From Spirosomataceae bacterium (GTDB lineage Bacteria > Bacteroidota > Bacteroidia > Cytophagales > Spirosomataceae): DNA of 34,172 nt. Shown here one piece after another: positions 11,783 to 34,172 of this stretch. Under the pieces are notes generated by a model, which made no database searches, was not told the DNA's origin, and worked only from the letters and a program-made list of their open reading frames with translations. Numbering within the stretch: position 1 is the stretch's first letter; each line of letters opens with the position of its first letter. The DNA is taken from the NCBI GenBank assembly GCA_022702045.1, contig JAKONH010000405.1:1-34172 (forward strand). The letters are read 5' to 3'. A program made the position numbers and the translations under genes.

Positions 11783-11808
11783 GATCATCGGTTTACAGAG
11801 AGATGATC
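11783..11808. promoter_or_regulatory. Inverted repeat between divergent genes
   Basis: GATCATC (11783-11789) and GATGATC (11802-11808) are perfect 7-bp arms around 12 bases. They lie 6 bp before the start of the ExbD-like gene and 44 bp before the opposite gene. It could be an operator or a leader stem-loop. Confidence 0.35.
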
Positions 11809-11851
11809 CCAACACCTGAAATTCATAAAGTCCACTTAACTTATCTTGCCC

Positions 11852-12076: not shown

Positions 12077-12088
12077 CCCCAACTGCGC

Positions 12089-12781: not shown

Positions 12782-12831
12782 CACAGCAGAATCGCCAACC
12801 GGTCAGTCTGTTTTTTTCGAGCAATAAACCT

Positions 12832-12868
12832 TGTCCACAAGTGAACACGCCCCGTCCGTTTACGGACA
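12832..12868. promoter_or_regulatory. Tandem palindromic operator/enhancer (site set 2)
   Basis: The proximal site (12853-12868) is CGTCCGTTTACGGACA, with perfect GTCCGT/ACGGAC arms around TT. The distal site (12832-12847) is TGTCCACAAGTGAACA, one mismatch from a 7-bp-arm palindrome. Centres are 21 bp apart, exactly as at 2202-2238. The pair lies 115-151 bp before the ATG at 12983. Confidence 0.7.
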
Positions 12869-12920
12869 AAGACCGCACTTACGCCTACACAAACAGCTAT
12901 TTATCAGTCAGTTAATTAGT

Positions 12921-12935
12921 TGGTACAACTTTGGA
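12921..12935 (+). promoter_or_regulatory. Candidate -24/-12-like promoter
   Basis: TGGTACAACTTTGGA has GG at -24 but is one base short of ideal sigma-54 spacing and lacks the -12 C. Its GG is centred 62 bp from the proximal palindrome centre, as in set 1. CAACTTTG (12926-12933) is an alternative near-match to the primary -7 box TAnnTTTG. Confidence 0.35.
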
Positions 12936-12982
12936 CCAGTGCAACGCTGGTTGCTTTGTTGCGCCCACTAACCTGACCGATC

Positions 12983-15364
12983 ATGCTGCGTAACCACGTA
13001 AAAATCGCACTTCGGACCTTTTGGAAAAACAAGCTGTTCAGCGGGCTCAACATAATCGGGCTGGGCGTCGGCATGGCGGCCGTCTGGCTCATGGTTTTGT
13101 ACGTGGTCGAGGAACGCAGTTATGATCGCTTCCACACCAATGCCGACAGGATTGTCCGGGTTGTTCAGCACATGCAGTGGCCGGGCGGAGACCTTCACAT
13201 GGCAGCTACGTCGGCCCCCTTTGCGGAAGCCCTGCAACGTGATTACCCAGACGTGGAAAAGACGGTCCGGTTCAACGCGGAAGGCGGTGGGCTGATTACG
13301 TATGGCGACAAAAAAGTAGACGTTCCTGCCATCTTCTTCGCCGACTCGACGGTATTCGATGTGTTTACGTTTCCCTTTCTGTACGGCGACCCGCATACGG
13401 CTCTTCGTAGTCCGCAGCGTATCGTGCTGACGAAGCGTACTGCCGAAACGCTGTTTGGCACTGCCGGCAACGCAGTCGGCAAGGTCATCGAGTTCAGCAA
13501 TCATTTTCCGAATACGGTGACGGGCGTTATCGAAGATGTACCAACGAACTCGCATTTACAGTTCAGCGCCTTACGCTCCCTCCCCGACAACTACACGAGT
13601 GGCTGGCAACAGTCCGAACTGTACACGTATCTGTTGCTGGCAAAGGGTAGCGAGCCCGAAACATTATCGGAAAAGCTAACCGGTTTCTTTCCGAAATACC
13701 TGAGAAAGGAACTGGGAAACGTGACGTATCGGCTGGAGCTACAACCCCTGACGTCGATTCACCTGCACTCGCACCTCGACTATGAAATCGGTCCGAATGG
13801 CAACGCTCGCACGGTCACTATTTTTGCCGCCGTAGCCGCGCTGATCTTACTGATTGCCGGTATCAACTACGTAAACCTGAACACGGTTCGCGCCCTCAAA
13901 CGGACACGCGAGGTCGGGGTTCGGAAAGCGGTCGGTTCCTACCGCCAGCAACTGATCGGGCAATTCCTAACCGAATCGCTGCTTATGACATTCCTGGCGG
14001 GACTGGTCAGTACCGGGCTGGTCGTAATGGCGTTGCCCTATTTCAATCAGCTCGCCGATAAAGCCTTGTCGCTGGGCAGTTGGTCCAGTACATTGCTGAC
14101 GGTTGCGCTGTTCTCGGTACTGATCGGTACACTGAGTGGTTTGTACCCCGCCCTGCGTATGTCTGGTTTTCGACCGGTATCAGCCCTGCGTGGTCAACAG
14201 AACACCCGGCAAAACCCAGTCAGGCTCCGGCAGGCGCTGGTTGTCTTTCAGTTCGTTGCTACGGTAGCACTGATTGCCTGCTCGGGCGTTGTATATCGGC
14301 AGATGCAGTTTGTCGGCCAGGCGGATTTAGGGTTCAACAAAGAACAGGTACTTACATTTCACATTGACGACGAAGCTGTCCGGCAGCGTGTCGACGCACT
14401 CAAGGAAGCCCTGGTCCGCAACCCGCTAATCGAAGGCGCGGCTGCCGCCAGCAATCCGATTGGCAACAACAACATCGGCGGCACAAGTATGTTTTTCGAG
14501 CAACAGGGGGCGTTCAGTCCCAATCCGCAGCTGGTTCAACGATTCCTCGTCGACCCGGATTACCTGACTACGCTGGAGATCGGTCTGGAAAGCGGCCGTA
14601 ACTTTTCCGCATCCTTTAAAAGCGACGTATCGAACGCTGTATTGATCAACCAAACCCTGGCCCGGCAGCTTGGCCCGCAGCCAGTTGGCAAGCGGGTCCG
14701 CTACGTTATCGATCAGGCCAACCACACTGCCGAAGCCCGTATCATTGGCGTTGTCAAGGATTTTCACACCTATTCGCTTCAACACAAAGTCGAGCCACTG
14801 GTGCTACAGATGCCTACAGCGCCTGACAAAGACAATCTGTACGTTCGGATTCGTGCGGGCAACGTACCGGCAGCACTGGCCTGTATCCAGGCGGTTTACC
14901 GGACGTTCTCTCCCACAGCTACGCCTGATTTTCACTTTCTGGACGAAAACTTCTCGAAGCAATACCAGGCCGAGCAGAAACAGGGCGATGTGCTGCTGAC
15001 GTTTACCATACTGGCTATCTTCATTGCCTGTCTGGGTCTGTTCGGGCTGGTCGCGTTCGCGGCCGAACAGCGGACCAAAGAAATTGGCGTTCGGAAAGTC
15101 CTTGGCGCATCCGTCGCCAGTATTGTCGCCCTGCTTTCCAAAGACTTCCTCAAGCTGGTGCTTATCGCCATGGTCATCGCGTCGCCCGTTGCCTGGTACG
15201 CCATGCATCAGTGGCTCCAGAATTTCGCCTATACGATCGAGCTAAGCTGGTGGCTATTCGCACTGGCGGGTCTGCTGACGACACTCATCGCCTTACTGAC
15301 AGTATGCCTTCAGAGCATCCGGGCAGCCCTGGTCAACCCCGTCAAGTCATTACGATCCGAGTAG
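12983..15364 (+). CDS. ABC transporter permease, FtsX/MacB type (copy 5)
   Basis: 793 residues, starting MLRNHVKIALRTFWKNKLFS, a somewhat divergent version of the family signature. Helix 1 lies at about 20-43. The first FtsX domain has LLIAGINYVNLNTVRALKRT and TREVGVRKAVGS (308-319), so it belongs to the NYVNL subgroup rather than the CINF subgroup of copies 2-4. The second half has CLGLFGLVAFAAEQRTKEIG and ends TVCLQSIRAALVNPVKSLRS plus E, with Cys replacing the usual Ser-Phe pair. First gene of the 12983-22797 block, with the tandem palindromes upstream. A 154-bp gap with two repeat elements separates it from the next permease. Its tail shares 32 identical bases (15137-15168) with copy 9 (28278-28309). 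Confidence 0.95.
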   Translation: MLRNHVKIALRTFWKNKLFSGLNIIGLGVGMAAVWLMVLYVVEERSYDRFHTNADRIVRVVQHMQWPGGDLHMAATSAPFAEALQRDYPDVEKTVRFNAEGGGLITYGDKKVDVPAIFFADSTVFDVFTFPFLYGDPHTALRSPQRIVLTKRTAETLFGTAGNAVGKVIEFSNHFPNTVTGVIEDVPTNSHLQFSALRSLPDNYTSGWQQSELYTYLLLAKGSEPETLSEKLTGFFPKYLRKELGNVTYRLELQPLTSIHLHSHLDYEIGPNGNARTVTIFAAVAALILLIAGINYVNLNTVRALKRTREVGVRKAVGSYRQQLIGQFLTESLLMTFLAGLVSTGLVVMALPYFNQLADKALSLGSWSSTLLTVALFSVLIGTLSGLYPALRMSGFRPVSALRGQQNTRQNPVRLRQALVVFQFVATVALIACSGVVYRQMQFVGQADLGFNKEQVLTFHIDDEAVRQRVDALKEALVRNPLIEGAAAASNPIGNNNIGGTSMFFEQQGAFSPNPQLVQRFLVDPDYLTTLEIGLESGRNFSASFKSDVSNAVLINQTLARQLGPQPVGKRVRYVIDQANHTAEARIIGVVKDFHTYSLQHKVEPLVLQMPTAPDKDNLYVRIRAGNVPAALACIQAVYRTFSPTATPDFHFLDENFSKQYQAEQKQGDVLLTFTILAIFIACLGLFGLVAFAAEQRTKEIGVRKVLGASVASIVALLSKDFLKLVLIAMVIASPVAWYAMHQWLQNFAYTIELSWWLFALAGLLTTLIALLTVCLQSIRAALVNPVKSLRSE

Positions 15365-17987: not shown

Positions 17988-20411
17988 ATGCTAGCCAACT
18001 ATCTCAAAATCGCCTGGCGCACCCTCTGGAAAGACAAGACCTTTTCGCTGATCAACATTGGCGGGCTGGCGGTAGGGTTAGCAATAGCGCTGCTGATTAT
18101 TCAGTATGTACGGTTCGAACTGAGCTACGAACATGACAATCCGCAGGCAAGTCGGCTGGTGCGCCTGACCATGGATTACCTGAATGGTGACGCCGTGAAT
18201 GTACAGGACACCGAAACGCACCCACCGCTGGGGCCCAGAGCCAAACGCGAACTGAAAGAGGTTGTTAACTACACCCGCGCCTATCCAATCAGTGAGCCAA
18301 CAATAACCATTCAGGTTGGGAACACCTATCATCTGGTAGAGCGCGTTTTTGCGGTCGACTCGTCGTTCTTTTCGCTGTTCAACTATGCCCTGCTGCGTGG
18401 AAGCCGGACAGCGCTTTTCACCCGGCATCGTCAGGCTGTTCTGACGGAATCAATGGCGCGGACGTATTTCAACACGCTTGACGTGGTAGGCAAAACATTG
18501 ACGATTGCCCAATCAAAGGGAAACGTACTGATCGACATCGTAGGCGTAATACCCGACAGCCCGGTCAATACGCACCTGAAAGTCAACATGCTGCTCTCCT
18601 ACCCCACTATGCTGACTGAGTTTGGCGAAACGGAAAACAACTGGGACGGCAACAACACACTCACTTATGTACAGTTAGCGGAGAAGGTTCGGTATGAAGA
18701 TTTCGACCATTCGTTGGCAGCATTCAACAACCGGTTGCACGCGGAAAAACGACTGTTGCACGAGCGGATTATCGGTCAGCCAATACGTGACATTCATTTG
18801 TATTCGCACAAAACGTTTGAGGTAGACCCGAACGGCGACGCACGGTCGGTCTATTTCCTGCTGAGCGTAGCCCTGCTCGTCCTGTTCAGCGCGGTGGTCA
18901 ATTACGTTAACCTAACTACCGCCAAGGCACTCGACCGGGCGCGGGAGATGGGCCTGCGTAAAGTCGTGGGGTCGACCCAAACGCAGATCCGAACGCAGGT
19001 ATTTACCGAAACCATTCTGATCAATGTTACCGCTGGAGTCCTGTCACTTATCCTGATTGCTCTTCTGGAGCCCGTATTTGCGCAGGTGGCCGGCTTACCC
19101 GACGGATTCAGCGTATTTGGCGACGCCTTCTTCTGGCTTAGCACCGGGGCCTTTCTGCTGCTGAGCACGGCGTTATCGGGTTTTTATCCGGCGTTCGTTC
19201 TATCTTCGTTCAAACCGGTTACTGTGCTGAAGGGCAGTTTCGCCCGCTCCATTAACGGAGCAACGCTTCGTAAATCACTGGTTATTTTTCAGTTTACGAT
19301 TACCCTGATACTGTTGGTGCAGACGTTCGCCGTTTACCAGCAGGTAGCGTTTTTACGGAAGCAGGACTTGGGGGTCAGCCTCGACCGAACGCTGGTGGTA
19401 AGGGCTCCTGTAAAGAGTAGCGCTACCCATCATAGCCAGTTTCGGCAAACGTTGCTCAGTCAGGCGCGGGTAAAGGCGGTTTCGTTTTCCAGCACGGTAC
19501 CGGGCCTGGGTACCGTTCAGCTGAGTTCTACGACGGGCATCAACCTGACCGACACGCAGGAAAAAACAACCTATAATTATTACCTGACCGGCATTGATAC
19601 GTCGTTCATCGATCTGATGGGTCTTCGCTTACTGGCCGGCAGAAACTTCGATTCACTCATTCCGTCAGCCCTGACTGATACGACGGATCGACAACTGATT
19701 GTTAACGAAGAAGTCTTACGGTTGTGGGGTATTCCGTCACCCCGCGAGGCCATTGGCCGAAAAGTCACTCTCTGGGGCCGTCAGGCGATGATTCGCGGGG
19801 TAGTTACTAACTACCACTACGAATCGCCAAAAGCCAGTTACATCCCCATTATCCATTTGTATTCACCCGAGTTCGACTCGTTTGCCAGTGTGAAATTTTC
19901 GGGCGGGCAAGCGGACGAGCAACTGGCTATATTGAAGAAAGCCTACGAAGCCAGTTTTCCCCATTCGCCCTTCAGTTATTTTTTCATGGACAGCGAGTAC
20001 GATAAGCAGTACAAGGCGGACGACCGTTTTCAACAGGTATTTGGCGCGCTGACGGGTTTCGCCATGCTGATCTCCTGCCTGGGCCTGTTCGGACTGGCTA
20101 CGTTTACGGTGGCCAAGCGCACCAAGGAAATTGGCATTCGTAAGGTGATCGGTGCCAGTACTGCGAATCTGCTGGTGTTACTTTCGAAAGACTTTATCCG
20201 GACGGTATTGATCGCTATCCTGATTGGTCTGCCTGTCACGTATCTGCTGGTCAGAAACTGGCTGGCCGGTTATGCCGCCCGCATTGAGTTGAGCTGGTGG
20301 CTGTTTGCGGCCCCGTCTCTGTTCATCATGCTGCTGGTCATCGTGTCGATCAGTGGAAAAACAATGGCTACAGCGCTGATGAATCCGGTCAAGTCGTTAC
20401 GTTCCGAGTAG
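17988..20411 (+). CDS. ABC transporter permease, FtsX/MacB type (copy 7)
   Basis: 807 residues, starting MLANYLKIAWRTLWKDKTFS. The first FtsX domain has VVNYVNLTTAKALDRAREMG with REMGLRKVVGS (319-329). The second has CLGLFGLATFTVAKRTKEIG followed by IRKVIGASTANLLVLL. The final helix region is unusual: in place of the common SFQSIRAALVNP it reads SISGKTMATALMNPVKSLRS, although the 97-residue tail length is kept. It therefore escaped the sequence homogenisation seen in most tails. Gaps of 57 bp before and 25 bp after make co-transcription with both neighbours likely. Confidence 0.95.
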   Translation: MLANYLKIAWRTLWKDKTFSLINIGGLAVGLAIALLIIQYVRFELSYEHDNPQASRLVRLTMDYLNGDAVNVQDTETHPPLGPRAKRELKEVVNYTRAYPISEPTITIQVGNTYHLVERVFAVDSSFFSLFNYALLRGSRTALFTRHRQAVLTESMARTYFNTLDVVGKTLTIAQSKGNVLIDIVGVIPDSPVNTHLKVNMLLSYPTMLTEFGETENNWDGNNTLTYVQLAEKVRYEDFDHSLAAFNNRLHAEKRLLHERIIGQPIRDIHLYSHKTFEVDPNGDARSVYFLLSVALLVLFSAVVNYVNLTTAKALDRAREMGLRKVVGSTQTQIRTQVFTETILINVTAGVLSLILIALLEPVFAQVAGLPDGFSVFGDAFFWLSTGAFLLLSTALSGFYPAFVLSSFKPVTVLKGSFARSINGATLRKSLVIFQFTITLILLVQTFAVYQQVAFLRKQDLGVSLDRTLVVRAPVKSSATHHSQFRQTLLSQARVKAVSFSSTVPGLGTVQLSSTTGINLTDTQEKTTYNYYLTGIDTSFIDLMGLRLLAGRNFDSLIPSALTDTTDRQLIVNEEVLRLWGIPSPREAIGRKVTLWGRQAMIRGVVTNYHYESPKASYIPIIHLYSPEFDSFASVKFSGGQADEQLAILKKAYEASFPHSPFSYFFMDSEYDKQYKADDRFQQVFGALTGFAMLISCLGLFGLATFTVAKRTKEIGIRKVIGASTANLLVLLSKDFIRTVLIAILIGLPVTYLLVRNWLAGYAARIELSWWLFAAPSLFIMLLVIVSISGKTMATALMNPVKSLRSE

Positions 20412-20436
20412 AGCCCACCCATCAATTCTTACAATC

Positions 20437-22797
20437 ATGCTGACTAGCTACGTCAAGATTACCGTACGAAATTTGTGGCGCAACAAACTGTACTCCGCCC
20501 TGAACATCGGTGGACTGGCGCTGGGCATGGCCATCAGCATGCTGATGCTGCTTTACGTCGTACACGAGTACAATTACGACCGCTTTCACCCGAAGGCGCA
20601 GCAGACAGTTCGCATGACGATCGAGCAGGAACGCGATGGGATGCATCTTAACTCAGTAGCCGTATCGTTTACGGTGAGTGATCGGATCAAGCGTCAGGTA
20701 CCGCACGTGGAGCAAATGACCCGGCTGATTTCCAGCGACTGGCAGGGAAAAGACATTGTCCGTTATCAGAATCAGCAGTTCTTTATTAAAGACATTGTAT
20801 ACGCCGATTCGTCGTTCTTCGACTTTTTCGCTTTTCCGATGAAACAGGGCAACGGTCGGCTGGCCCTTTCCCAGCCTGGCTCTGTTATTCTGACCGAATC
20901 ACTGGCTCGTAAATTTTTCGGTCACGCCGATGCACTGGGCAAGACAATACTCTTCAACAACAAGCATCGGCTTACCGTGGCTGGTATTATGCATGATCTA
21001 CCATCGAACACGGCGTTCACATTTCCAATGCTGATTGCGACCAGCAGTTTCAGGCAGCTTGCCCCTGCCTGGCGATGGGAAACGGCCCCCGAAGGTGAGA
21101 CATACTTCCGACTGAGCCCTCAATTTACCAGTCAGCAGTTTGCGTCATTTCTTAATAAGCACGTCAAGCTTTCTGAGGATCCAAAAACGAAAACGTCTGC
21201 CCTCATTGACCCACTGACCAGTATGCACATTGGTGGTAATGTCACGAATTCTACGGTCGGCAGCTATGTTCAAACGTTTCTCTGGATCGGTATCAGCGTT
21301 TTGTTGCTGGCACTAATCAACTATATGAATCTGACCACAGCGCGCGCTACGGTGCGGGCTAAAGAAGTCAGTATGCGGAAAGTGTTGGGGGGCGATCAAG
21401 GGGCGCTCGTCAGCCAGTTCTTTATCGAATCGGCCTTCGTCAGTGTGCTATCGTTTTGCCTGGGCGTCGGTTTGATGCTCCTGCTCAAAGACCCATTCCT
21501 CAGCCTGATCGACGCCAAAATAGATCAGGATTTTCTTGTCAGTTCGTTCTCGCTGCTGACGCTGACGGGTATTCTGCTGATGAGTATTCTGGTATCAGGT
21601 AGCTATCCGGCCTTTGTGCTGTCCCGCTTTTCGCCGATTAACATACTGAAAGGTCAAATCAGTCTACCCGGAAACCTGTCTGTTCGGCAGGTACTGGTCG
21701 TCTTTCAGTTCGTGGTATCAATAACGCTGATCTTTTGTACGGTCGTGGCGCAGCGGCAACTCCGGTATATGCAGACCAAAGATTTAGGCCTGAATGTCGA
21801 TCAGGTGATAGGTATCTCATTAAGTAAATCGCTGGGAGTACATTATAGCAGCTTCCGGCAGGATATACTGGCGCAAAGCGGAGTCGAGCGAATTGCAACC
21901 AGTGCGATGGCTTTTTATAACGGCGGCTTTAACGTCTGGGCAGTGAAGACGAATAAGATGCAAAAACCCATCACACTAACAGGTTTGAGTGTCGACAGTT
22001 CTTTTGTACCGACGCTCAGGTTACGCTGGAAAAATCCACCGCAGGACGTGACAGCGGGGCAGGTGTTTATCAACGAAATGGCCGCCAAAGAGCTGGGCAT
22101 TGCCAAGAATCCACTGGGGCAGGTATTAACTATTGGTACTATGCAGCAAGAGGTGCGCGGGGTAGTTGAAGATTTTCACACGAGTTCGGTAAAGAACCCG
22201 ATCCAACCCACCTTACTGCTGGTTAGCCCCGATACCAGCCAAACATTCGCAGACTACAATGGTACTTTGTATGTCCGGTTTCGAAAAGGAACTGACCTGC
22301 AACAACAGGTCAAGGCTATTGACCAAATCGTTCAGAAACACGCACCTGATTCTCCTTTCGATTATTATTTTCTCGACGATGCCTTTAACCGCCTTTTTCA
22401 GACGGAACAGCGACTGGCTAATGTGCTGAACGTATTTACGACTGCGGGTATTCTGATTGCCTGTCTGGGTCTATTCGGTCTGGTCGCTTTTGCCGCCGAG
22501 CGCCGGACAAAAGAAATCGGGATTCGAAAAGTGCTGGGTGCGTCGGTTAGCAGCCTTGTCGGTATGCTGTCGAAAGACTTTCTGAAACTGGTAGCGCTGG
22601 CGATACTCATTGCCTGCCCAATAGCCTGGTACACAATGAATGAGTGGCTTCAAGCGTACGCGTACCGGATTACGATCGACTGGTGGCTGTTCGTACTTGT
22701 CGGAACGCTGGCCTTGGGCATCGCTTTCCTGACGGTCAGCTACCAAAGCATTCGAGCCGCGCTGGTTAACCCCATCAAGTCGTTGCGGAGCGAGTAG
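20437..22797 (+). CDS. ABC transporter permease, FtsX/MacB type (copy 8)
   Basis: 786 residues, the shortest complete copy. It begins MLTSYVKITVRNLWRNKLYS. The first FtsX domain has LALINYMNLTTARATVRAKE and KEVSMRKVLGG (309-319), with Ser in place of the central Gly as in copy 4. The second half has CLGLFGLVAFAAERRTKEIG and ends NPIKSLRSE. The first periplasmic domain (about 45-270) is shorter than in the others, which accounts for most of the length difference. Last gene of its block; a T-run and an inverted repeat follow directly. Confidence 0.95.
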   Translation: MLTSYVKITVRNLWRNKLYSALNIGGLALGMAISMLMLLYVVHEYNYDRFHPKAQQTVRMTIEQERDGMHLNSVAVSFTVSDRIKRQVPHVEQMTRLISSDWQGKDIVRYQNQQFFIKDIVYADSSFFDFFAFPMKQGNGRLALSQPGSVILTESLARKFFGHADALGKTILFNNKHRLTVAGIMHDLPSNTAFTFPMLIATSSFRQLAPAWRWETAPEGETYFRLSPQFTSQQFASFLNKHVKLSEDPKTKTSALIDPLTSMHIGGNVTNSTVGSYVQTFLWIGISVLLLALINYMNLTTARATVRAKEVSMRKVLGGDQGALVSQFFIESAFVSVLSFCLGVGLMLLLKDPFLSLIDAKIDQDFLVSSFSLLTLTGILLMSILVSGSYPAFVLSRFSPINILKGQISLPGNLSVRQVLVVFQFVVSITLIFCTVVAQRQLRYMQTKDLGLNVDQVIGISLSKSLGVHYSSFRQDILAQSGVERIATSAMAFYNGGFNVWAVKTNKMQKPITLTGLSVDSSFVPTLRLRWKNPPQDVTAGQVFINEMAAKELGIAKNPLGQVLTIGTMQQEVRGVVEDFHTSSVKNPIQPTLLLVSPDTSQTFADYNGTLYVRFRKGTDLQQQVKAIDQIVQKHAPDSPFDYYFLDDAFNRLFQTEQRLANVLNVFTTAGILIACLGLFGLVAFAAERRTKEIGIRKVLGASVSSLVGMLSKDFLKLVALAILIACPIAWYTMNEWLQAYAYRITIDWWLFVLVGTLALGIAFLTVSYQSIRAALVNPIKSLRSE

Positions 22798-22801
22798 CGC
22801 G

Positions 22802-22906
22802 TTTTTTTTGACAGGATTACAGGATAAACAGGATGCGCAACCAGACCAGTTAGCTTCGCTGGTAAAAGTAGCGTATCCGTAATCCTGAAAATCCTGTTCA
22901 TTCTGT
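22802..22906. repeat. Imperfect inverted repeat built from AATCCTGT units
   Basis: Eight T residues (22802-22809) are followed by ACAGGATTACAGGATAAACA and GGAT (22811-22834). The opposite orientation, AATCCTGAAAATCCTGTTCA then TTCTGT, is at 22881-22906. Inside the loop ACCAG and CTGGT form a smaller stem. The arms consist of short repeated ATCCTGT-like units. It may act as a terminator for the permease operon and resembles dispersed intergenic repeats seen in many Bacteroidota. Confidence 0.55.
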
Positions 22907-22933
22907 TGAAAAGTTAATAGCCCTGTAATTTTT

Positions 22934-22941
22934 TACTTTTG
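22934..22941 (+). promoter_or_regulatory. Candidate -7 element for the yjdM-like gene
   Basis: TACTTTTG fits TAnnTTTG exactly, 23 bp before the ATG at 22965. The nearest upstream TTG (22906-22908) is 25 bp away, longer than ideal. Confidence 0.45.
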
Positions 22942-22964
22942 CGGTCAATTAAACAAGCCCTATC

Positions 22965-23303
22965 ATGACCGTACTTGCTCCGTGCCCACTGTGCCAATCC
23001 ACCTATACATATGCCTTGGACAACCTGCTGGTGTGTCCCGAATGTGGCCACGAATGGAATCCGGCTGACGAGCAGACTGCCGACGATTCGCGCATCGTCA
23101 AAGACGCTAACGGCAATACGCTTCAAAATGGCGACACCGTAGTGACTATAAAGAATCTACCCGTAAAAGGGTCGGCGCAGGGTATCAAAGCAGGCACCAA
23201 AGTGAAAAACATTCGTCTGGTCGACAGCGACCACAACATCGACTGCAAGATTGATGGCTTCGGCGCCATGGCCCTCAAGTCAGAATTTGTTAAGAAAGCG
23301 TAA
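22965..23303 (+). CDS. yjdM: YjdM/PhnA-family zinc-ribbon protein
   Basis: 112 residues, the normal family length. An N-terminal zinc ribbon holds two Cys pairs, CPLC (about 7-10) and CPEC (about 24-27, followed by GHEW). The PhnA domain follows, with [20 protein letters not shown] and an end [16 protein letters not shown]. The family was once linked to phosphonate use, but YjdM itself has no established enzymatic role. It is cytosolic. It has its own -7-like box and a shared terminator with the converging katG, so it is a single-gene unit sitting between permease blocks with no obvious functional tie to them. Confidence 0.92.
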
Positions 23304-23317
23304 TCTGTAGATTCGCA

Positions 23318-23334
23318 AGATGTTGCGGCTCTAC
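23318..23334 (+). repeat. Short intergenic element, copy E (17 bp)
   Basis: AGATGTTGCGGCTCTAC is identical to 15482-15498. Here it lies 15 bp after the yjdM stop codon, away from any permease start. Confidence 0.6.
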
Positions 23335-23359
23335 ACATGGCAAATCACTAAAAATAGAT

Positions 23360-23385
23360 AAGGCCGCCCCAAACGGGGCGGCCTT
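23360..23385 (-). terminator. Strong terminator, probably bidirectional
   Basis: AAGGCCGCCCC (23360-23370) pairs perfectly with GGGGCGGCCTT (23375-23385) over an AAAC loop, an 11-bp GC-rich stem. On the minus strand a T-rich stretch follows after a few bases, so it terminates katG. It may also stop transcription from yjdM. Confidence 0.88.
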
Positions 23386-23409
23386 AATACTACCATCCAC
23401 ACTAGTTAA

Positions 23410-25800
<2,391 letters not shown>

Positions 25801-25906
25801 TTGATTTGTTTTATTATTACATATATAATATCTATATATTCAATTAGTAAGCTAACGATCCTACAGTACAGATGCGCTACCCGCTGACTACTAATCGGTT
25901 AGTTAC
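25801..25906. other. AT-rich part of the katG/permease divergent region
   Basis: The 356 bp between katG and the permease at 26061 has no gene I can support. Its middle (25801-25856) is strongly AT-rich, with runs such as TTTATTATTACATATATAAT, probably bendable or easily melted DNA. The katG promoter lies to its left, the palindromic operator sites and the permease promoter to its right. Confidence 0.6.
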
Positions 25907-25944
25907 TGTCCGCTTTAGCTAGCTACTTCGTCCATTAATGGACA
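25907..25944. promoter_or_regulatory. Palindromic operator/enhancer (site set 3)
   Basis: The proximal site (25929-25944) is CGTCCATTAATGGACA, with perfect GTCCAT/ATGGAC arms around TA. A degraded distal site (25907-25922) keeps TGTCC on one side only; its centre is 22 bp away, close to the 21 bp of the other two sets. The set lies 117-154 bp before the permease start at 26061. Confidence 0.6.
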
Positions 25945-25999
25945 TATTTCTGCATATGGAATACTAGCAACCTACTATCAATCAACAATTTAACTTTTT

Positions 26000-26015
26000 C
26001 GGTACACACTTTGGT
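26000..26015 (+). promoter_or_regulatory. Candidate -24/-12-like promoter
   Basis: CGGTACACACTTTGGT fits TGGCACG-N4-TTGCW spacing, with GG at -24 and TTG at -15 to -13, but has G at -12. Its GG is centred 65 bp from the proximal palindrome centre. The predicted start near 26026 gives a leader of about 35 bases. It resembles the element at 12921. Confidence 0.4.
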
Positions 26016-26060
26016 CACTATGCTTTCGATTTACCTGATCACGCTTAACCGACGATATGT

Positions 26061-28505
26061 ATGCTGCTCAATTACCTCAAGATCGCGCTACGGACACTGC
26101 GAAAAAACCGGGTGTTTTCGCTCATCAACATCGTCGGGCTGGCGTTGGGTATCACGGCATTCATTCTGATTCTGGAGTATGTAGCGTATGAACGAAGCTT
26201 CAACCAGTTTCACAAAAACCTGCCGACCTTATACCGGCTACTCAATCAGAATCAGTCGGGCGATGTCTGGTCAGATCTGTCTCCACCCATCGGACCACTG
26301 ATCAAAGAGAAGTGCCCCGAAGTGCGCGCGTTTTGCCGTATTGCCGAACATTCGGCCAATGGCATCGTCAGTTTTCCCAATGCACATACAGCTCGATCGT
26401 TTCGGGAGAGTAAACTGGCTTATGCCGACGCCAGCTTCTTCACTCTTTTTTCGTTTCCATTACTGAATGGAACGGCCCCGACGGCACTGACCCAACCCAA
26501 CACAGTAGCCCTGTCGCAGTCGCAGGCTCACAAGTATTTCGGCAATCGGAATTCGATTGGCCAACTCCTGACACTTAATAATCAGTTTGGGAAGACGCAG
26601 TATACGGTAACAGCCGTGTATGCCGACATGCCCCGGAACTCTGACGTATCGTTCGATGCGGTGTTTTCACTGCAAACACTGGCAAACTCCGCTAATTTGG
26701 GTGGCAACGACTGGGCGCGCCTGGACAGTTTTTACGGCACGTATCTGACCACGTTTCTGCAACTGACAGAGTCGAAGACGTCGGATGAGCTGGCTAGTTG
26801 TAGGACATTGGAAGAAAAAATTAACGCGCTTGCCAGGCAGTTAGCTCCCGGCAATAACGATCGGTTCATTGTTCAGCCAGCCACCACACTACATCTGGCG
26901 TCTTCTCTGAGCGACGTATACAAGACTAGTGGTAGTCTCGGTTTTGTGTATCTACTTAGCGGCATTGCCGGGTTAGTCTTGTTGATTGCCTGGTTCAACT
27001 ACGTCAACTTATCAACCGCCGGAGCCCTGAAACGGGCGAAAGAGGTAGGCGTTCGGAAAGTAATTGGCGCCGGGACAGGTCAGCTTATCGGACAGTTTCT
27101 GGGTGAGTCATTACTCCTGAACGGCCTTGGTTTCGGCTTGGCGTTATTAATAGTGGCCTTGCTGCAACCAGCTTTCAACGAATTCATTCAGAAAGACTTA
27201 TCACTCAGCGCACTTGGCACCGGCACATTCTGGCTGGCCGGAGCGGGTTTGCTCATCGCCGGGGCAGTCATGTCGGGTGGTTATGTAGCCTTTGCCATGA
27301 CTTCGTTTCAGCCCCTACAAATTATGAAAGGCACCTATCAGGGTGGAAAAAGTGGCCTATTACGCAAAGCGCTGGTCGTTGCTCAGTTCAGCACGTCGAT
27401 TGCTCTGGTCATTGCCACGCTGGTACTGTATCGACAGTTGCAGTATATGCAAACGAAAAACCTCGGTGTCAGTCTGACGCAGCGCGTCGTGATCAGGGGG
27501 CCTCAGCTGGCACAAACCGGCTCATTCAAGACCGCTACCACTGCCCTTGAAGATCAGCTCGGTCAACTCCCTTACGTGAAACGCTTTTGCCATACGAGTG
27601 TCGTACCGGGCAACTTCTATAATTTCACGGCAAACGGCATTACTACCCAGCATCCACGGCCGGGCGACGATAAGAAATCGTATTCAATGGGCATCGTAGA
27701 CGACCGTTTCCTGCCAACTTACGAAATTCGACTGGCGGCAGGCCGGAATTTTACGGCCCAGGAAGCGGAACTGGGTTACGAGAAAAGCAGTCGGGTAATG
27801 ATCAACGAAACGGCTGCACGTCAGCTGGGTTTTGCCTCGCCGAGTCAGGCCGTGGGGAAACGCGTCAACTGGGGGCAACCGTTTGAAATAGTTGGTGTTG
27901 TCGCTGATTACCATCATCAGGGTGTAAAATACGCTATCGAACCGGCCATTTTTCTGCCACGGCGGTCAGTGAGCGATCTGACGGTTCAGTTGACCACCGA
28001 TCAGGTACAGGATAAACTGGCTACGCTGGAGCAATTGTACAAAGCCGCCTATCCGGGTAATCCGTTCGAGTTTTTCTTCGCCGACGAGAATTACAACCGG
28101 CAATACCAGGCCGAGCAACAGTACGGTCAGGTATTCACCATTGGCTCCTCACTCGCCATTTTCATTGCCTGCCTGGGTTTATTTGGGCTGGCTACCTTCA
28201 CGACGCAGCAGCGCACCAAAGAGATTGGTGTCCGGAAGGTGCTGGGCGCATCCGTTACCAGTATCGTCGCCCTGCTCTCCAAAGACTTCCTCAAGCTGGT
28301 GCTTATCGCTATCCTGCTGGCCTCTCCCCTGGCCTGGTACGCTATGGATCGCTGGCTGCAGGACTTCGCCTATCGCGTCGACATCAGTTGGTGGGTGTTC
28401 GCTCTGGCGGGATCGCTGGCCGTAGGTATCGCCCTGCTAACGGTTAGTTTCCAAAGTATCCGGGCCGCGCTGGTTAACCCCGTCAAGTCATTACGAAGTG
28501 AGTAG
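26061..28505 (+). CDS. ABC transporter permease, FtsX/MacB type (copy 9)
   Basis: 814 residues, starting MLLNYLKIALRTLRKNRVFS. The first FtsX domain has LIAWFNYVNLSTAGALKRAK and KEVGVRKVIGAG (327-338). The second has CLGLFGLATFTTQQRTKEIG and ends NPVKSLRSE. Its last 97 residues are nearly the same as in copies 1, 3 and 10, including a 32-base identity with copy 5, while its periplasmic domains differ. Start chosen at 26061 because it restores the family N-terminus; the ATGs at 26020 and 26057 are out of frame. First gene of the last block and preceded by site set 3. The next permease starts 44 bp after its stop. Confidence 0.95.
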   Translation: MLLNYLKIALRTLRKNRVFSLINIVGLALGITAFILILEYVAYERSFNQFHKNLPTLYRLLNQNQSGDVWSDLSPPIGPLIKEKCPEVRAFCRIAEHSANGIVSFPNAHTARSFRESKLAYADASFFTLFSFPLLNGTAPTALTQPNTVALSQSQAHKYFGNRNSIGQLLTLNNQFGKTQYTVTAVYADMPRNSDVSFDAVFSLQTLANSANLGGNDWARLDSFYGTYLTTFLQLTESKTSDELASCRTLEEKINALARQLAPGNNDRFIVQPATTLHLASSLSDVYKTSGSLGFVYLLSGIAGLVLLIAWFNYVNLSTAGALKRAKEVGVRKVIGAGTGQLIGQFLGESLLLNGLGFGLALLIVALLQPAFNEFIQKDLSLSALGTGTFWLAGAGLLIAGAVMSGGYVAFAMTSFQPLQIMKGTYQGGKSGLLRKALVVAQFSTSIALVIATLVLYRQLQYMQTKNLGVSLTQRVVIRGPQLAQTGSFKTATTALEDQLGQLPYVKRFCHTSVVPGNFYNFTANGITTQHPRPGDDKKSYSMGIVDDRFLPTYEIRLAAGRNFTAQEAELGYEKSSRVMINETAARQLGFASPSQAVGKRVNWGQPFEIVGVVADYHHQGVKYAIEPAIFLPRRSVSDLTVQLTTDQVQDKLATLEQLYKAAYPGNPFEFFFADENYNRQYQAEQQYGQVFTIGSSLAIFIACLGLFGLATFTTQQRTKEIGVRKVLGASVTSIVALLSKDFLKLVLIAILLASPLAWYAMDRWLQDFAYRVDISWWVFALAGSLAVGIALLTVSFQSIRAALVNPVKSLRSE

Positions 28506-28549
28506 CGCTTCGTCTTCCGGCCCAAGTTCGATCTTAATTTATTTTACCC

Positions 28550-30967
28550 ATGTTGACAAACTACGTCAAAATTGCCTGGCGGAACCTCGCCAGGCAGAGC
28601 GGCTACACAGCAATCAATATTTTCGGTCTGGCGGTTGGTATGGCCGCTACCATGCTCATTTTTCAGTATGTCAACTTCGAACGGAGCTACGACCGTTTTC
28701 ACGAACGCGTTGATCGGATTGTTCGCGTAACGGCCCAACGCTACGAACACGGCGTTCTGTCGACCAACTGGGCCGGAGGGCCGTTTGCGGCAGGAAACCA
28801 GCTGAACGATGCATTTCCCGAAGTAGCCGACTATGTCAAGCTATTCGCCCGTCCCAAACTAGTACTGGAGGCCCATCAGCGGGAGTACCGGGTAGACAAC
28901 GGTTTTTTTGTTACGCCTTCCTTCTTCAAGGTCTTTTCATTTCCACTAACCGCAGGCGATACACGAACAGCACTGACGGAACCCAACACGGGGGTTATTT
29001 CAGCCTCACTGGCGAAGCGATTGTTTGGCATGGCAAATCCGGTTGGACAGTTGCTGAACGTTGAGCGTGAACTTCCCATTCGAGTAACCGGCGTCTATCC
29101 TGATTTCCCAAAGAACTCCCACCTGCAGGCGGATTACCTGATGTCGTTCAGCACGTTTCAGGCGTTAGCTAATCCCAAAAATGAACCTGACAGAAATTTC
29201 GACAATGTTTGGGACCAAGATGGTTGCTTAACGTATTTACTATTGAAACCGGGTACGGATGTACGGGCGCTGGAACGTAAGTTACCCGCCTTTACGGAGC
29301 GAAAAGATCAACGCGATCCGAAGACGGGCGATGGACTTTTGCTTCAGTTACAGCCGTTAACCGACATTCATTTATACTCGCACTTACTGTTTGAAGCGAG
29401 TCCAAATGGTGATGGCAACGCGGTGTACGTGTTACTATGCGTCGCCTTCTTCATTATCGGCATCGCCTGGATTAATTATATCAACCTGGCTACGGCACGG
29501 GCCATCGGCAGGGCAAAAGAAGTAGGGGTACGCAAGGCTATCGGTTCGTACCGTGACCAGCTGATCGGGCAGTTTCTGATTGAGTCGGCTTTGCTGAATG
29601 GGCTGTCGGTTGGCGCAGCATTCATACTGATCACGGCATCGCTACCCATTTTTAATCAGTTTACAGACCAGCAATTGACGTACGACTTTGTAAAGTCTAC
29701 TCGTTTCTGGCTCGGGCTGGGTGGCATGTACGTCGTGGGCACGCTACTCTCCGGTCTCTATCCTGCCTTCGTACTGTCTGGCTTCAAACCAGTGGCCGTT
29801 CTGAAGAATGGCATAGCTGGTTTCAGAGAGGGCGTTACACTCCGTAAATCACTGGTTGTCGTTCAGTTTGCGGCTTCCGTGTTCCTGCTGGTGGCCACCA
29901 TAACGGTGTTCCGCCAACTGGAATTTATGCGTGACCAGAACCTGGGGGTTACGATTGACCAGACAATGGTACTGGGCAAGCCCGTAAACGACTCGACGCG
30001 TGTGAGTAGAACGAAGGCGTTTAAAGAGTACTTGCTATCCCAATCAGGCATACAACGTGTGACGGTATCGGCAACTGTTCCGGGCGAAAAAGTGGAGTTC
30101 AACGCAGGTGGCATTCGTTTGGTCGGTGCACCCGATGATGCCGGAAAGCAATACCGGATTATTAGTACCGATTACGACTTCGTCGATGCATACGGATTAA
30201 AGCTACTGGCGGGTCGAAATTTCAATTCAGCACTGGGCGAGAAAGATGCAGTCATTTTTAACCGAACGGGTCTGTCGCAGCTAGGTTTCACTGACCCCGA
30301 TAAAGCGATCGGCCAACGAATCGATTTTTGGGGAGACAAACTCACCATTGTTGGGGTGATCGACAATTTTCATCAGCAATCACCCCGGGAAGCGTATGAG
30401 CCGCTTATTCTACGCCTTGACCCTGGTGTGCATGGTCCCATTTCAATCAAGATGACAGGGCGTGAGTCGGCCCACATGGTAACTATCGCTAAACAAGCGT
30501 GGCAGCAGTTTTTCCCCGGTGATCCTTTCGAGTTCACATTCCTAGATGAACAGTACGATAAGCAATACCGGGCCGATGACCGATTCGGGCAGGTGTTTGG
30601 CTTTTTCACAATTCTGGCTATAATCGTATCCTGCCTGGGATTATTAGGTCTGGCTACGTTCACGGCGCAGCAACGCACCAAAGAAATCGGCGTACGCAAG
30701 GTACTGGGCGCGTCGGTCGTCAGTATCGTCGCCCTGCTCTCCCGAGACTTCCTCAAACTAGTCCTTATCGCCATTCTGCTGGCCTCGCCCATTGCCTATT
30801 ACGCCATGCATCAGTGGTTGCAGGACTTCGCTTACCGAATCGACATTAGTTGGTGGGTCTTCACCTTGGCTGGACTGTTGGCGATCGGCATTGCGTTGCT
30901 GACGGTGAGTTTTCAGAGCATCCGGGCCGCTATGCTCAACCCAGTCAAGTCATTACGTAGCGAGTAG
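28550..30967 (+). CDS. ABC transporter permease, FtsX/MacB type (copy 10)
   Basis: 805 residues, starting MLTNYVKIAWRNLARQSGYT. The first FtsX domain has IGIAWINYINLATARAIGRA and KEVGVRKAIGS (323-333), closest to copy 5, which also reads SYRxQLIGQFL after it. The second domain has VSCLGLLGLATFTAQQRTKE, with Leu replacing the usual Phe in GLFGL, and ends AAMLNPVKSLRSE. Probably co-transcribed with copy 9 (44-bp gap). A strong terminator-like hairpin lies between its stop and the start of copy 11, so read-through to that gene is likely reduced or regulated. Confidence 0.95.
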   Translation: MLTNYVKIAWRNLARQSGYTAINIFGLAVGMAATMLIFQYVNFERSYDRFHERVDRIVRVTAQRYEHGVLSTNWAGGPFAAGNQLNDAFPEVADYVKLFARPKLVLEAHQREYRVDNGFFVTPSFFKVFSFPLTAGDTRTALTEPNTGVISASLAKRLFGMANPVGQLLNVERELPIRVTGVYPDFPKNSHLQADYLMSFSTFQALANPKNEPDRNFDNVWDQDGCLTYLLLKPGTDVRALERKLPAFTERKDQRDPKTGDGLLLQLQPLTDIHLYSHLLFEASPNGDGNAVYVLLCVAFFIIGIAWINYINLATARAIGRAKEVGVRKAIGSYRDQLIGQFLIESALLNGLSVGAAFILITASLPIFNQFTDQQLTYDFVKSTRFWLGLGGMYVVGTLLSGLYPAFVLSGFKPVAVLKNGIAGFREGVTLRKSLVVVQFAASVFLLVATITVFRQLEFMRDQNLGVTIDQTMVLGKPVNDSTRVSRTKAFKEYLLSQSGIQRVTVSATVPGEKVEFNAGGIRLVGAPDDAGKQYRIISTDYDFVDAYGLKLLAGRNFNSALGEKDAVIFNRTGLSQLGFTDPDKAIGQRIDFWGDKLTIVGVIDNFHQQSPREAYEPLILRLDPGVHGPISIKMTGRESAHMVTIAKQAWQQFFPGDPFEFTFLDEQYDKQYRADDRFGQVFGFFTILAIIVSCLGLLGLATFTAQQRTKEIGVRKVLGASVVSIVALLSRDFLKLVLIAILLASPIAYYAMHQWLQDFAYRIDISWWVFTLAGLLAIGIALLTVSFQSIRAAMLNPVKSLRSE

Positions 30968-30987
30968 CTGATTTGTTAAATAACGTT

Positions 30988-31049
30988 AAGGAACAGTCAA
31001 TGCATCAATGAGTTAGCTAACTTTCCGGTGTATTGACTGCTCCTTTTTT
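30988..31049 (+). terminator. Terminator or attenuator abutting the next start codon
   Basis: AGGAACAGTCAAT (30989-31001) pairs with ATTGACTGCTCCT (31032-31044) with a single mismatch, over a 30-base loop that itself holds the palindrome GTTAGCTAAC (31012-31021). The T-run 31044-31049 ends at the base before the ATG at 31050. Transcripts from upstream would end or be sequestered exactly at the ribosome-binding region of the next permease. TAACTTTC (31018-31025), inside the loop, is a near-match to a -7 box that would bypass the hairpin. Confidence 0.65.
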
Positions 31050-33455
31050 ATGTTCAAAAAATACCTGAAAATTGCCTGGCGGAATAGCGTCCGAAACAAG
31101 AAATATAGCCTGATCAATATCATCGGACTCTGGTCGGGAATCCTGTTTGTGCTACTGATCGGCCTGTACATCCGAACGGAGTGGCAGGTAAACCGCACCT
31201 TGCGTCATCCCGACCAGCAGTACATCCTGCTCAGCCATTGGAAAGACCCCAACATGGGGCCCGGCTTTACGACGCTGGCTCCGCTGGCGAAGCAATTGCA
31301 GCAGCAGTATTCGACCCTGGTGCGCAACTATTACCGCTGGGATGGACTGACGTCGGTCGTGTCCAGAAACAACAACCATTTTCGGGAGAGTATCGGCTTG
31401 GGCGACAGCACGCTACTGTCGATGTATGGGTTTCGGTTAGTACACGGCGACGCCCAGACAGCCTTAAAACAACCCTTCTCAGTGGTATTGACAGCTGAAA
31501 AAGCCCGCAAGTATTTCGGGCGCACCGACGTACTGGGGCAAACGGTGACTATTCAGAACTTCGTGGGCGACAACCAGCCATTTACAATCACGGCCATACT
31601 CGATGATTTGCCGACAAACTCCGTGACGCAGTTGAGCAGCGCTTCTACCAATTCGTTTTTTATTCCTGGCAGCGCAGCAACATACTTCAATCGGGGTGAT
31701 TTCGATTCGTGGCAAAACACAATCATCCCCTCCTACGTCGAACTACAGCCGGGCGTGACGGCGGCTGCGCTGGCGAAACCCATTCAACAGCTGATCAATC
31801 AGCATACGAGCGAGATTGTCCGTAAAAATCTGTGGGTCGAGCCGATTCTGCTGACCGATTACTACCGGCAGAAAGACAATCAGCTAGTCAATAGAATGCT
31901 GCTGACACTGGGCCTGGCGGGGCTGTTCATTCTACTTATGGCCGTCGTCAATTTTGTTAACCTGACCATCGGCCAATCACATACTCGTATTCGGGAGATC
32001 GGTGTGCGGAAGGTGTTGGGCAGTCCACGCAGCCAACTCATCGGGCAGTTGCTGACCGAGTCGCTCTTGCTGACGAGTCTCGCGACCAGCCTGGCCTTTG
32101 CAACGTATCCGTTTGCCAGGCCTTACTTCGAGGAAGTCGTCGGGAAAACGTTGCTCCCCCTGTCGAGCCTCCCCGTTGGTTTCGCCGTCGTGCCATTCCT
32201 GCTCGTGCTGCTGGTGGGTTTACTGGCCGGCTTTTATCCAGCCATCGTACTGTCGTCGCTGCGTATGGTCGATGCCGTCAAGGGACAGCTTCAGTCGGTA
32301 GCAGGCAAAACAAGCCTGCGTAAAGTCCTGATTGGCTTTCAATTCAGTGTGGCAGCCCTGGTACTGATTGCGGCCGTGCTGGTGACACAGCAGGTTCAGT
32401 TCTTTTTCGGGCAGAAGCTGGGCTACGACCGAACGTATGTTGTATCGGCACCGGTTCCCCGCGACTGGTCACCGGCGGGAGTGCAGCGTATGGAAGCCTT
32501 ACGCCGACAGTTTGCCCGATTGCCGCAGGTAGCCAGCGTAAGCTTATCCCATGAGATTCCGAATGGGAACCTGGGCACCCAACCCATGCTCTACCGGCAG
32601 GGTGTCGACTCAAGCCGGGCGACACCGATGCAGGCACTCATCACCGACGATCAGTACCTGAGTGCCTACCAGATTCCACTACGGGCGGGCCGCTTCTTCG
32701 ATGGCAGTATCAGCGACTCACTGGGCGTAGTGATCAACGAGAAAGCCGCGCGGGCGCTGGGGTACTCCAGTTTGCAGGCCGCCCTCGGCCAATCGGTGCG
32801 GGTTACCAATGATCCGCGGGTATTCACCGTCCGGGGCGTCACGGCCGATTTCCAGACGGGCTCGATGCATCAGGCCATTCAGCCCCTTGCCTTCTTCTCG
32901 GTTAGCAACGTGTCCATCTACCGCTATTTATCGTTTCGCCTACAGCCCGGCGCTATCGGCAAAACGCTCGACGCCATACAAGCCAGGTGGGCCATGCTGA
33001 TGCCCGGTAGTTCGTTCGAGTATACATTCATGGACGATACGCTGCGCAGCCTGTACGAAGCCGAATTTCAGTTGCAGCGGGCCACCTATCTGGCAACAGC
33101 TTTGGCGGCACTCATCGCTTTGCTGGGTATTCTGGGGCTAGTGTCTATTGCCGTTCAGCGGCAAACCAAAGCCATCGGTATCCGACGTGTACTGGGCGCG
33201 TCGATCAGCGATATCGTTGGTTTATTCGTGCGGGAGTTCATTCCGATTATGGGCATCGCGGGTGTCGTGTCGGCAGCGGTGGCTTACGGGCTAATGCAGC
33301 AATGGCTCGATCAGTACGCGTACCGCATCGACGTTTCACCCTGGGCGTTTGTGCTGCCCCTATCGATTCTGATGGCAAGCGCCATGGTCCTAACCGGCTC
33401 GCAGGCCGTCCGGGCCGCGCTGGTCAACCCCGTCAAGTCGCTCAAAAGCGAATAG
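31050..33455 (+). CDS. ABC transporter permease, FtsX/MacB type (copy 11, divergent)
   Basis: 801 residues, starting MFKKYLKIAWRNSVRNKKYS. The first FtsX domain has LLMAVVNFVNLTIGQSHTRI and REIGVRKVLGS (315-325). The second is the most divergent in the array: LLGILGLVSIAVQRQTKAIG then IRRVLGASISDIVGLFVREF, with Ala and Arg replacing Glu and Lys of KEIGVRKVLGAS, and SPWAFVLPLS where others have SWWVFALAG. It ends NPVKSLKSE. The 97-residue tail length is preserved. Divergence and the hairpin in front suggest a separately controlled, older paralogue. Two stem-loops follow its stop. Confidence 0.94.
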   Translation: MFKKYLKIAWRNSVRNKKYSLINIIGLWSGILFVLLIGLYIRTEWQVNRTLRHPDQQYILLSHWKDPNMGPGFTTLAPLAKQLQQQYSTLVRNYYRWDGLTSVVSRNNNHFRESIGLGDSTLLSMYGFRLVHGDAQTALKQPFSVVLTAEKARKYFGRTDVLGQTVTIQNFVGDNQPFTITAILDDLPTNSVTQLSSASTNSFFIPGSAATYFNRGDFDSWQNTIIPSYVELQPGVTAAALAKPIQQLINQHTSEIVRKNLWVEPILLTDYYRQKDNQLVNRMLLTLGLAGLFILLMAVVNFVNLTIGQSHTRIREIGVRKVLGSPRSQLIGQLLTESLLLTSLATSLAFATYPFARPYFEEVVGKTLLPLSSLPVGFAVVPFLLVLLVGLLAGFYPAIVLSSLRMVDAVKGQLQSVAGKTSLRKVLIGFQFSVAALVLIAAVLVTQQVQFFFGQKLGYDRTYVVSAPVPRDWSPAGVQRMEALRRQFARLPQVASVSLSHEIPNGNLGTQPMLYRQGVDSSRATPMQALITDDQYLSAYQIPLRAGRFFDGSISDSLGVVINEKAARALGYSSLQAALGQSVRVTNDPRVFTVRGVTADFQTGSMHQAIQPLAFFSVSNVSIYRYLSFRLQPGAIGKTLDAIQARWAMLMPGSSFEYTFMDDTLRSLYEAEFQLQRATYLATALAALIALLGILGLVSIAVQRQTKAIGIRRVLGASISDIVGLFVREFIPIMGIAGVVSAAVAYGLMQQWLDQYAYRIDVSPWAFVLPLSILMASAMVLTGSQAVRAALVNPVKSLKSE

Positions 33456-33479
33456 CGATTGTAAAAATAAGCCACAGCG

Positions 33480-33500
33480 CATCAGACAAGCGAGCTGATG
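33480..33500 (+). other. Small stem-loop after the last permease
   Basis: CATCAG (33480-33485) pairs with CTGATG (33495-33500) over nine bases. There is no T-run; it could be an mRNA 3'-end structure. Confidence 0.35.
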
Positions 33501-33519
33501 TGATTGAAAATCAAGCCTC

Positions 33520-33575
33520 ATGGCCCGTTTACGATGACAGGGTTTGACAGAATGTAGTAGTCGTAAACGGGCCAT
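33520..33575. repeat. Perfect 15-bp inverted repeat with 26-base loop
   Basis: ATGGCCCGTTTACGA (33520-33534) and TCGTAAACGGGCCAT (33561-33575) are perfect complements. No T-run follows on either strand. It lies in the 233-bp gap between the last permease and the next gene. It might be a terminator without a T-tract, a REP-like element or a regulator site. Confidence 0.7.
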
Positions 33576-33688
33576 AGCAATAACCGGGTCCGTTTATACG
33601 ATTTATCCACACCTATAGTGGCAATCTGTTGATAATAAGCTACTTTTTAGCTAATCAGCATTCATTGTTCAACCAACTTCTTCCTTTT

Positions 33689-34172
33689 ATGCGAACCCTT
33701 ATTCGTGTGCTGGTGCTGGTCCTGCTTATACTACCGCCCGCTGTCGCTCAATTCGATTCCCGCGCCTTGAAACTAACACCGGCTCAACCCGAACCTAGGC
33801 AGTCGGTAACCATCACCTACGATCCCAAAGTCACTAAACTGGCGACGGAGTCGACCGTCGAGGCTACCGCCTATGCGCTCACTGGCGATGAGGACGGCGT
33901 AACCGCCATGACCGTTCCGCTCACTAAAGACGGTGGTAGCTGGAAAGGCTCGTTTACCGTTCCCGCTAAAACGCTGGCACTGGCCTTTAGCTTCACCAAC
34001 GGCGCCAAACGGTCTGATACCAACGACGAGAAAGGGTACGCGTCGTATCTGTATAAAGACGGAACGGTTCTACCCGGCAGCCGGGCCACCCTGGGCGACT
34101 GGTACGGCGGTCAGGTTTATCTGGCCGGATTGGATTCCGACAGAGATCGGGCCAGAGCGTTCTTTCAGGACG
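33689..34172 (+). CDS. Exported protein, N-terminal part (family uncertain)
   Basis: The frame is open from the ATG at 33689 to the window end, 161 codons. MRTLIRVLVLVLLILPPAVA followed by QFDS is a clear signal peptide. The visible mature part looks like a beta-sandwich domain: an opening stretch LTPAQPEPRQSVTITYDP, a central region with alternating hydrophobic residues, and then GYASYLYKDGTVLPGSRATL. The ending AGLDSDRDRARAFFQD may begin a linker to a second domain. Similar N-terminal domains precede thioredoxin-like domains in some exported Bacteroidota proteins, but nothing seen here proves that. A TACTTTTT box at 33641 is a weak promoter candidate. Confidence 0.75.
   Translation, partial: MRTLIRVLVLVLLILPPAVAQFDSRALKLTPAQPEPRQSVTITYDPKVTKLATESTVEATAYALTGDEDGVTAMTVPLTKDGGSWKGSFTVPAKTLALAFSFTNGAKRSDTNDEKGYASYLYKDGTVLPGSRATLGDWYGGQVYLAGLDSDRDRARAFFQD

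Follow-up and report, generated by a model that had tools for sequence, protein, structure and literature searches.

A terminator-like hairpin around a predicted promoter ahead of the last FtsX/MacB-type permease in a Spirosomataceae array

Introduction

Related FtsX/MacB permease genes are numerous in Spirosoma genomes and commonly stand in tandem, and the question raised here is how the last member of one such array might be transcribed on its own. The locus lies in a 34,172-nucleotide stretch of a Spirosomataceae genome (contig JAKONH010000405.1), the whole of which is called the window. Only 82 bp separate its last two permease genes, 28550-30967 and 31050-33455, and the following features lie in or border on this gap.

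28550..30967, + strand: upstream FtsX/MacB-type permease, 805 aa, stop codon at 30965-30967
30975..30989, − strand: direct-repeat box TTAACGTTATTTAAC, in the opposite orientation to that in most relatives
30988..31006, + strand: hairpin 5′ arm
31007..31026, + strand: hairpin loop of 20 nt, with an inner 5-bp helix GAGTT/AACTT
31018..31025, + strand: −7-like element TAACTTTC, wholly within the hairpin loop (S. oryzae counterpart TACCTTTC)
31027..31045, + strand: hairpin 3′ arm
31044..31049, + strand: run of six T, the last being the base before the ATG (S. oryzae counterpart TTTATT)
31050..33455, + strand: last permease, FtsX/MacB-type, 801 aa (MacB_PCD + FtsX)

An earlier sequence-only reading had fixed the start of the last permease at ATG 31050 by its conserved N-terminus, and this held across the 30 regions compared, in which the motif M-[FLIV]-x-x-Y-x-x-[IV]-[AS] was seen. 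Our favoured reading, to which we give a probability of roughly 0.55, is that this gene has its own activator-dependent promoter, overlapped by a probable terminator that would block read-through; promoter activity, start point, activator and termination are what we infer from the DNA.

A hairpin far above chance ends at the start codon

The hairpin at 30988-31049 has the arms AAGGAACAGTCAAT and ATTGACTGCTCCTT, which form 13 Watson-Crick pairs and one A.C mismatch with 30 nt between them; with G-T pairs counted, 18 of the 19 stem positions pair, one is a mismatch, and the enclosed loop measures 20 nt. The sequence-only description of it, a 13-bp stem with one mismatch, a 30-base loop and six T before ATG 31050, proved exact and was even understated. 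The minimum free energy of the 62 nt is −27.6 kcal/mol, a value equalled by none of 1000 first-order Markov shuffles in either of two runs, and the 121-nt context gave a z of −3.03 with 0 of 200 shuffles as good. Under the settings used, it was the first of the nine inverted-repeat pairs listed for the window, and it was the longest of three window stems having at least 14 pairs followed by a T-rich stretch, with 0, 1, 0, 0 and 2 such stems found in five Markov shuffles of the window. The hairpin is real, lies at 30988-31049 and stands far above chance. Elsewhere in the window, a perfect 15-bp inverted repeat with a 26-nt spacer lies at 33520-33575, shortly 3′ of the last permease, and a 15-pair hairpin followed by a T run occupies 518-554 inside a listed 117-aa ORF (478-831), which hints that this ORF is not a gene.

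Two other identities for the hairpin block were tried and rejected. A repeat or mobile element (REP/MITE) was dismissed because the block is single-copy in its own genome (83% complete, 646 contigs), where no second copy was found and the other low-E-value match was the hairpin repeat on its own reverse strand and nothing else. A riboswitch or known cis-regulatory RNA was dismissed as well, since no Rfam family matched at gathering score and below it there were two chance-level matches (best E 0.86).

Like an intrinsic (Rho-independent) terminator, the hairpin has a stable stem-loop in RNA, a T-run directly after the stem and a place downstream of a stop codon. It differs from one in that its 20-nt loop holds a −7-like element, it ends directly at the ATG of the next gene and its stem shows no compensatory change in the one relative that shares it, although such compensation does not strictly define intrinsic terminators. 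By its shape, a terminator function would be plausible.

The hairpin block tracks the downstream gene

The sister species Spirosoma oryzae (NZ_PVTE01000006.1; genome G030, contig C6), of the same genus as the window and a 94% match, has the same hairpin block, and directly 5′ of it stands a relative of window 26061-28505. The alignments run from window 23348-28506 to 9007-14165 and from 30630-31546 to 13827-14743. The permease at 28550-30967 is a whole extra gene of the window, missing at the S. oryzae locus; its boundaries lie near paralogous 3′ ends, a pattern expected of recombination between tandem permeases. S. oryzae thus retains the block next to a different upstream neighbour, so that the hairpin and the predicted promoter are linked to the downstream permease.

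This bears on a very improbable alternative, namely that the hairpin is a plain 3′-end terminator of the upstream permease and that the −7-like match in its loop is accidental. In some related loci, such as L022 and L034 (read by eye), a terminator-like hairpin with a T-run does follow right after the upstream permease, upstream of the box. Nevertheless, S. oryzae has a different upstream permease and yet the same block, and the box-to-TA distance in the window fits the class described below.

The hairpin is shared with one sister only

The 62-base block is 53/62 identical between the window and S. oryzae, compared with 266/412 at the four-fold sites of the last-permease gene; the block as a whole is thus better kept than silent sites, and the stem is not singled out within it. 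Five of the 19 stem positions have changed, with four pairs broken, one gained and none compensatory, although two sequences give such a count little power. The S. oryzae stem keeps 15 of 19 positions paired, about what is expected after nine random substitutions (P = 0.41); it folds at −18.3 kcal/mol, which 29 of 1000 shuffles equalled, so that this weaker hairpin is only mildly special. Its T-run is broken to TTTATT, which places an A at −3 before the start codon, and A at −3 is said to favour translation in F. johnsoniae (PMC6847099).

Further relatives were compared in a set of 47 upstream regions (30 loci plus 17 of the 45 of a second set, omitting partial and distant loci as well as L038, a duplicate of the S. 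oryzae locus). Among the 46 regions other than the window, only S. oryzae shares the hairpin, in its weakened form; the same hairpin was found in none of the other 45, and the nearest in position was an 8-bp repeat in L031. A 461-base query against 36 genus genomes likewise returned the complete block from no genome but that of S. oryzae; a match of 75% identity to the right half alone came from genome G023. Palindromes around permease promoters in general showed a weak excess, with 7 of the 47 regions at p ≤ 0.05 versus about 2 expected; these seven include the L031 repeat, which lies at a window-like place (−56 to −8), and some upstream terminators and AT-rich repeats. A widespread terminator-at-ATG arrangement was rejected, since one other case was found (L039, lacking a T-run of six) in a scan of 137 loci, 899,178 bases and 439 gene starts, a redundant sample enriched for these permeases; the count is a lower bound, because the one-mismatch rule missed S. 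oryzae itself.

The earlier proposal that the hairpin stops transcription is plausible, in that the shape fits an intrinsic terminator; against it are the S. oryzae stem of 15/19 at P = 0.41 and the broken T-run. The proposed check on paired positions pointed both ways, with 15 of 19 paired in S. oryzae on one side, and no compensatory change and 45 regions devoid of the hairpin on the other.

These comparisons lend some weight to the idea, possible although rather unlikely in our judgement, that only the promoter matters: the box and the −7 element would be functional, and the inverted repeat would be a palindrome, accidental or short-lived, that hardly affects read-through. The stem changes between the window and S. 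oryzae do not preserve pairing, the hairpin is confined to these two among the 47 regions, and a paralogue in G023 keeps the −7 core without it. Moreover, perfect inverted repeats of other geometry, of 13 bp and 11 bp, respectively, stand around the −7 element upstream of the permease ATG in L025 and L039. Their 5′ arm includes the whole element or just its beginning, and part of the element thus recurs inverted a little downstream; palindromes may arise and vanish at this place. The same idea has to contend with how extreme the window hairpin is (0/1000 shuffles) and with a T6 run that ends exactly at the ATG.

A −7-like element lies in the loop

The Bacteroidota sigma-A promoter consists of −33 TTTG and −7 TAnnTTTG (PMC6847099, PMC9723704). 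The window element TAACTTTC has the TA-N2-TT core and a plausible leader of about 20 nt; both it and TACCTTTC are one base off the consensus TAnnTTTG, the last base being C instead of G in the window, and relatives read TTC or TTG. Its TA lies 43 bp from the box start and 32 bp from the ATG, exactly as in S. oryzae, and the TA-to-ATG distance in relatives is 31-67 bp. The −33 TTTG is usually found about 19-21 nt upstream of the −7 element. No such TTTG was seen by eye at the usual distance from TAACTTTC, and loci of this class instead have a direct-repeat box 38-59 bp upstream of the TA. Relatives with TACCTTGC fit, in addition, the SM5 motif TAnnTTGY of F. psychrophilum (PMC6847099, PMC9723704). 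A sigma-70 promoter scan of 20000-34172, tried and set aside, gave 13 matches versus 10.5 expected and is not informative for this phylum.

Because the published position of the T of the −7 element is −12 (PMC6847099, PMC9723704), the transcript is predicted to start near 31030, with a leader of about 20 nt, CTCCTTTTTT; the median leader in F. psychrophilum is 24 nt (PMC6847099, PMC9723704). The first 80 nt of an RNA from the predicted start fold at just −6.6 kcal/mol. Such an RNA could not form the hairpin, because it would lack the 5′ arm, whereas read-through RNA can, and the minimum-energy structure, the only structure considered, of a 300-nt read-through RNA keeps it.

The core is more widespread than the hairpin, since it occurs in G023 where the hairpin does not. 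The pattern GTTAGCTA[AC]CTTTC-N4-10-TTGAC[CT]G was found at three places in 36 genus genomes (window, S. oryzae and G023), with no control match. The G023 locus (L263, G023:C1:5089850-5090300) has GTTAGCTAACTTTC and then TTGACTG in the same order ahead of the ATG of a permease paralogue; in the window register no more than 8 of 19 positions pair, folding of the 62 nt yields −9.4 kcal/mol and a different shape, and the TTAAC box has decayed. The reading frame of this paralogue has early stops.

A promoter inside the loop, which had been offered as one option, is hence the best-supported part of the sequence-only reading, because TAACTTTC lies wholly in the loop at a class-typical distance. Its distances from the TTAAC box and the ATG are those of relatives, and the recurrence of GTTAGCTAACTTTC ahead of the G023 paralogue without a hairpin agrees with it. 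A second claim, that the hairpin hides the ribosome site, is unsupported in the usual sense, because the phylum is described as lacking Shine-Dalgarno sequences (PMC6847099) and the leader is CTCCTTTTTT; the start region would be folded in read-through RNA only.

Conditional expression through the stem or through read-through found no backing either, and a condition is suggested by the box, not by the stem. An attenuator, by which the permease would be made through conditional read-through from the upstream gene under antitermination or ligand control, has in its favour that a terminator-like structure immediately precedes a gene start; we regard it as quite improbable, given that the minimum-energy fold of the 300-nt RNA retains the hairpin, that Rfam offered only the two chance-level matches, and that the stem occurs in one sister only while a promoter module occupies the same place in many relatives. 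The pattern in relatives is the better explanation of the block.

A phased TTAAC box precedes a subset of permeases

Most Spirosoma relatives read have the direct repeat TTAAC-N5-TTAAC and then a TACCTT[CG] element ahead of the last-permease relative. The exact box, in either orientation and within 150 nt of the ATG, was found in 26 of the 47 upstream regions including the window, versus a mean of 0.02 and a largest count of 1 in 200 base-shuffled sets. In the genus, the forward module gave 36 matches in 27 of 36 genomes, against 2 control matches, and all 36 lie ahead of a superfamily permease (29 + 4 read, 3 by coordinates); these matches are not independent, because many are orthologues and G024 contributes three identical ones. 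The box-to-TA distances were 38 (21 matches), 48 (1), 49 (1) and 59 (13), with no other value although 35-63 was allowed, i.e. steps of about one helical turn. Outside the genus, 200 family genomes gave 33 matches versus 33 in the control, no excess; 25 of the 33 lie ahead of such a permease, all at distance 38, and the other eight have distances of 46 (3), 56 (2), 54, 38 and 37. Only gene context and distance set the non-genus matches apart from the control. The boxed permeases are a small subset of the FtsX/MacB genes (e.g. L117-L146, L189-L192 and L230-L262), and judged from these motifs the subset looks like one regulon with a single putative activator.

The box of the window, TTAACGTTATTTAAC, is inverted and lies within 23 nt (30974-30996) that S. 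oryzae shares without any change. An inverted box was also found in S. oryzae, L033, L050, L052 and L054, although in L050 the distance fits the class only if TAGCTTT is taken as the element. The inverted-box module gave 31 matches versus 13 in the control in 200 family genomes, under a stricter pattern that the window's own box does not match. Among the 30 matches read, six lie ahead of last-permease relatives, with box-to-TA distances of 53, 42, 43, 42, 43 and 53, one of them (L213) being the same locus as L033 and several looking like close relatives. The other 24 comprise 13 with a different ORF and 11 without an ORF by rule, at distances of 37-63, and five of these 24, lacking a permease by the ORF rule, are also at 42, 43 or 53. 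A looser inverted pattern gave 12 matches versus 10 in the control in the genus, not clearly above it. The inverted-box patterns are therefore specific only in part; the window itself has the combination seen in this class, an inverted box at 42, 43 or 53 bp from the TA and ahead of a last permease. In two places, G000:C170:15596 (L152) and G030:C4:106214 (L149), an inverted box plus TACCTTC is conserved at 39 bp spacing ahead of a 276-aa non-permease ORF; this may be coincidence or one more target.

At the start of the permease array, window 1191-2132 encodes a 313-aa protein (P0001) with a C-terminal OmpR-type winged helix (Trans_reg_C), no other Pfam domain and, by eye, hydrophobic stretches. 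A relative of it adjoins the box in G002 (L114). As a general box regulator, P0001 was rejected in a phyletic test, because G006, with three boxes, has a C-terminal match only and S. oryzae only a 34% match.

Discussion

In our favoured reading, a putative tandem DNA-binding activator would bind the TTAAC box at 30975-30989, an OmpR-type winged-helix protein being suggested by the 10-bp period of the direct repeat, and would help RNA polymerase to start at TAACTTTC in the hairpin loop. The new transcript from near 31030 would carry the 3′ arm alone and would not be terminated, while RNA reading in from the upstream permease would contain both arms and fold, so that it would end in the T-run or else present a folded start region. 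The hairpin would then most likely serve as insulation, stopping array transcription just before the last permease, because the 31030 transcript has only the 3′ arm while read-through RNA forms the hairpin; and expression of the last permease would depend on its own promoter alone, since read-through would be stopped or folded and the local start would not. As the hairpin surrounds the promoter, an upstream polymerase would cross it before stopping.

A bolder form of this arrangement, which we think unlikely, is a nested switch with terminator and promoter in the same 60 bp, in which read-through transcription would fold, stop and disturb the promoter on its way while local initiation would skip the 5′ arm, so that upstream transcription and the last permease might be mutually exclusive. 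A dedicated activator would then serve the permease subset, its box working in both orientations and at distances quantised in helical turns.

Terminators and promoters are known kinds of element, and an overlap of the two such as this one is a variant. Short direct repeats one helical turn apart are typical of tandem activator sites of the OmpR/PhoB type, such as the B. subtilis PhoP box, which lie upstream of weak promoters at distances differing by about one turn. The TTAAC box resembles them in its repeats one turn apart, its position upstream of a weak promoter and its turn-stepped distances, but is found in the opposite orientation too, where the distances are offset by roughly half a turn. 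A limited and phrase-bound literature search found no description of a promoter-terminator overlap of this arrangement, which does not show it to be unreported, and a limited search found none on control of single FtsX/MacB permease members in Spirosoma.

The window offers a case of how a gene in a permease array might be insulated within 82 bp, with the start signal inside the stop signal. Of wider reach than the hairpin is the phased box that precedes FtsX/MacB permeases, through which one regulator common to a subset of these genes could be approached experimentally.
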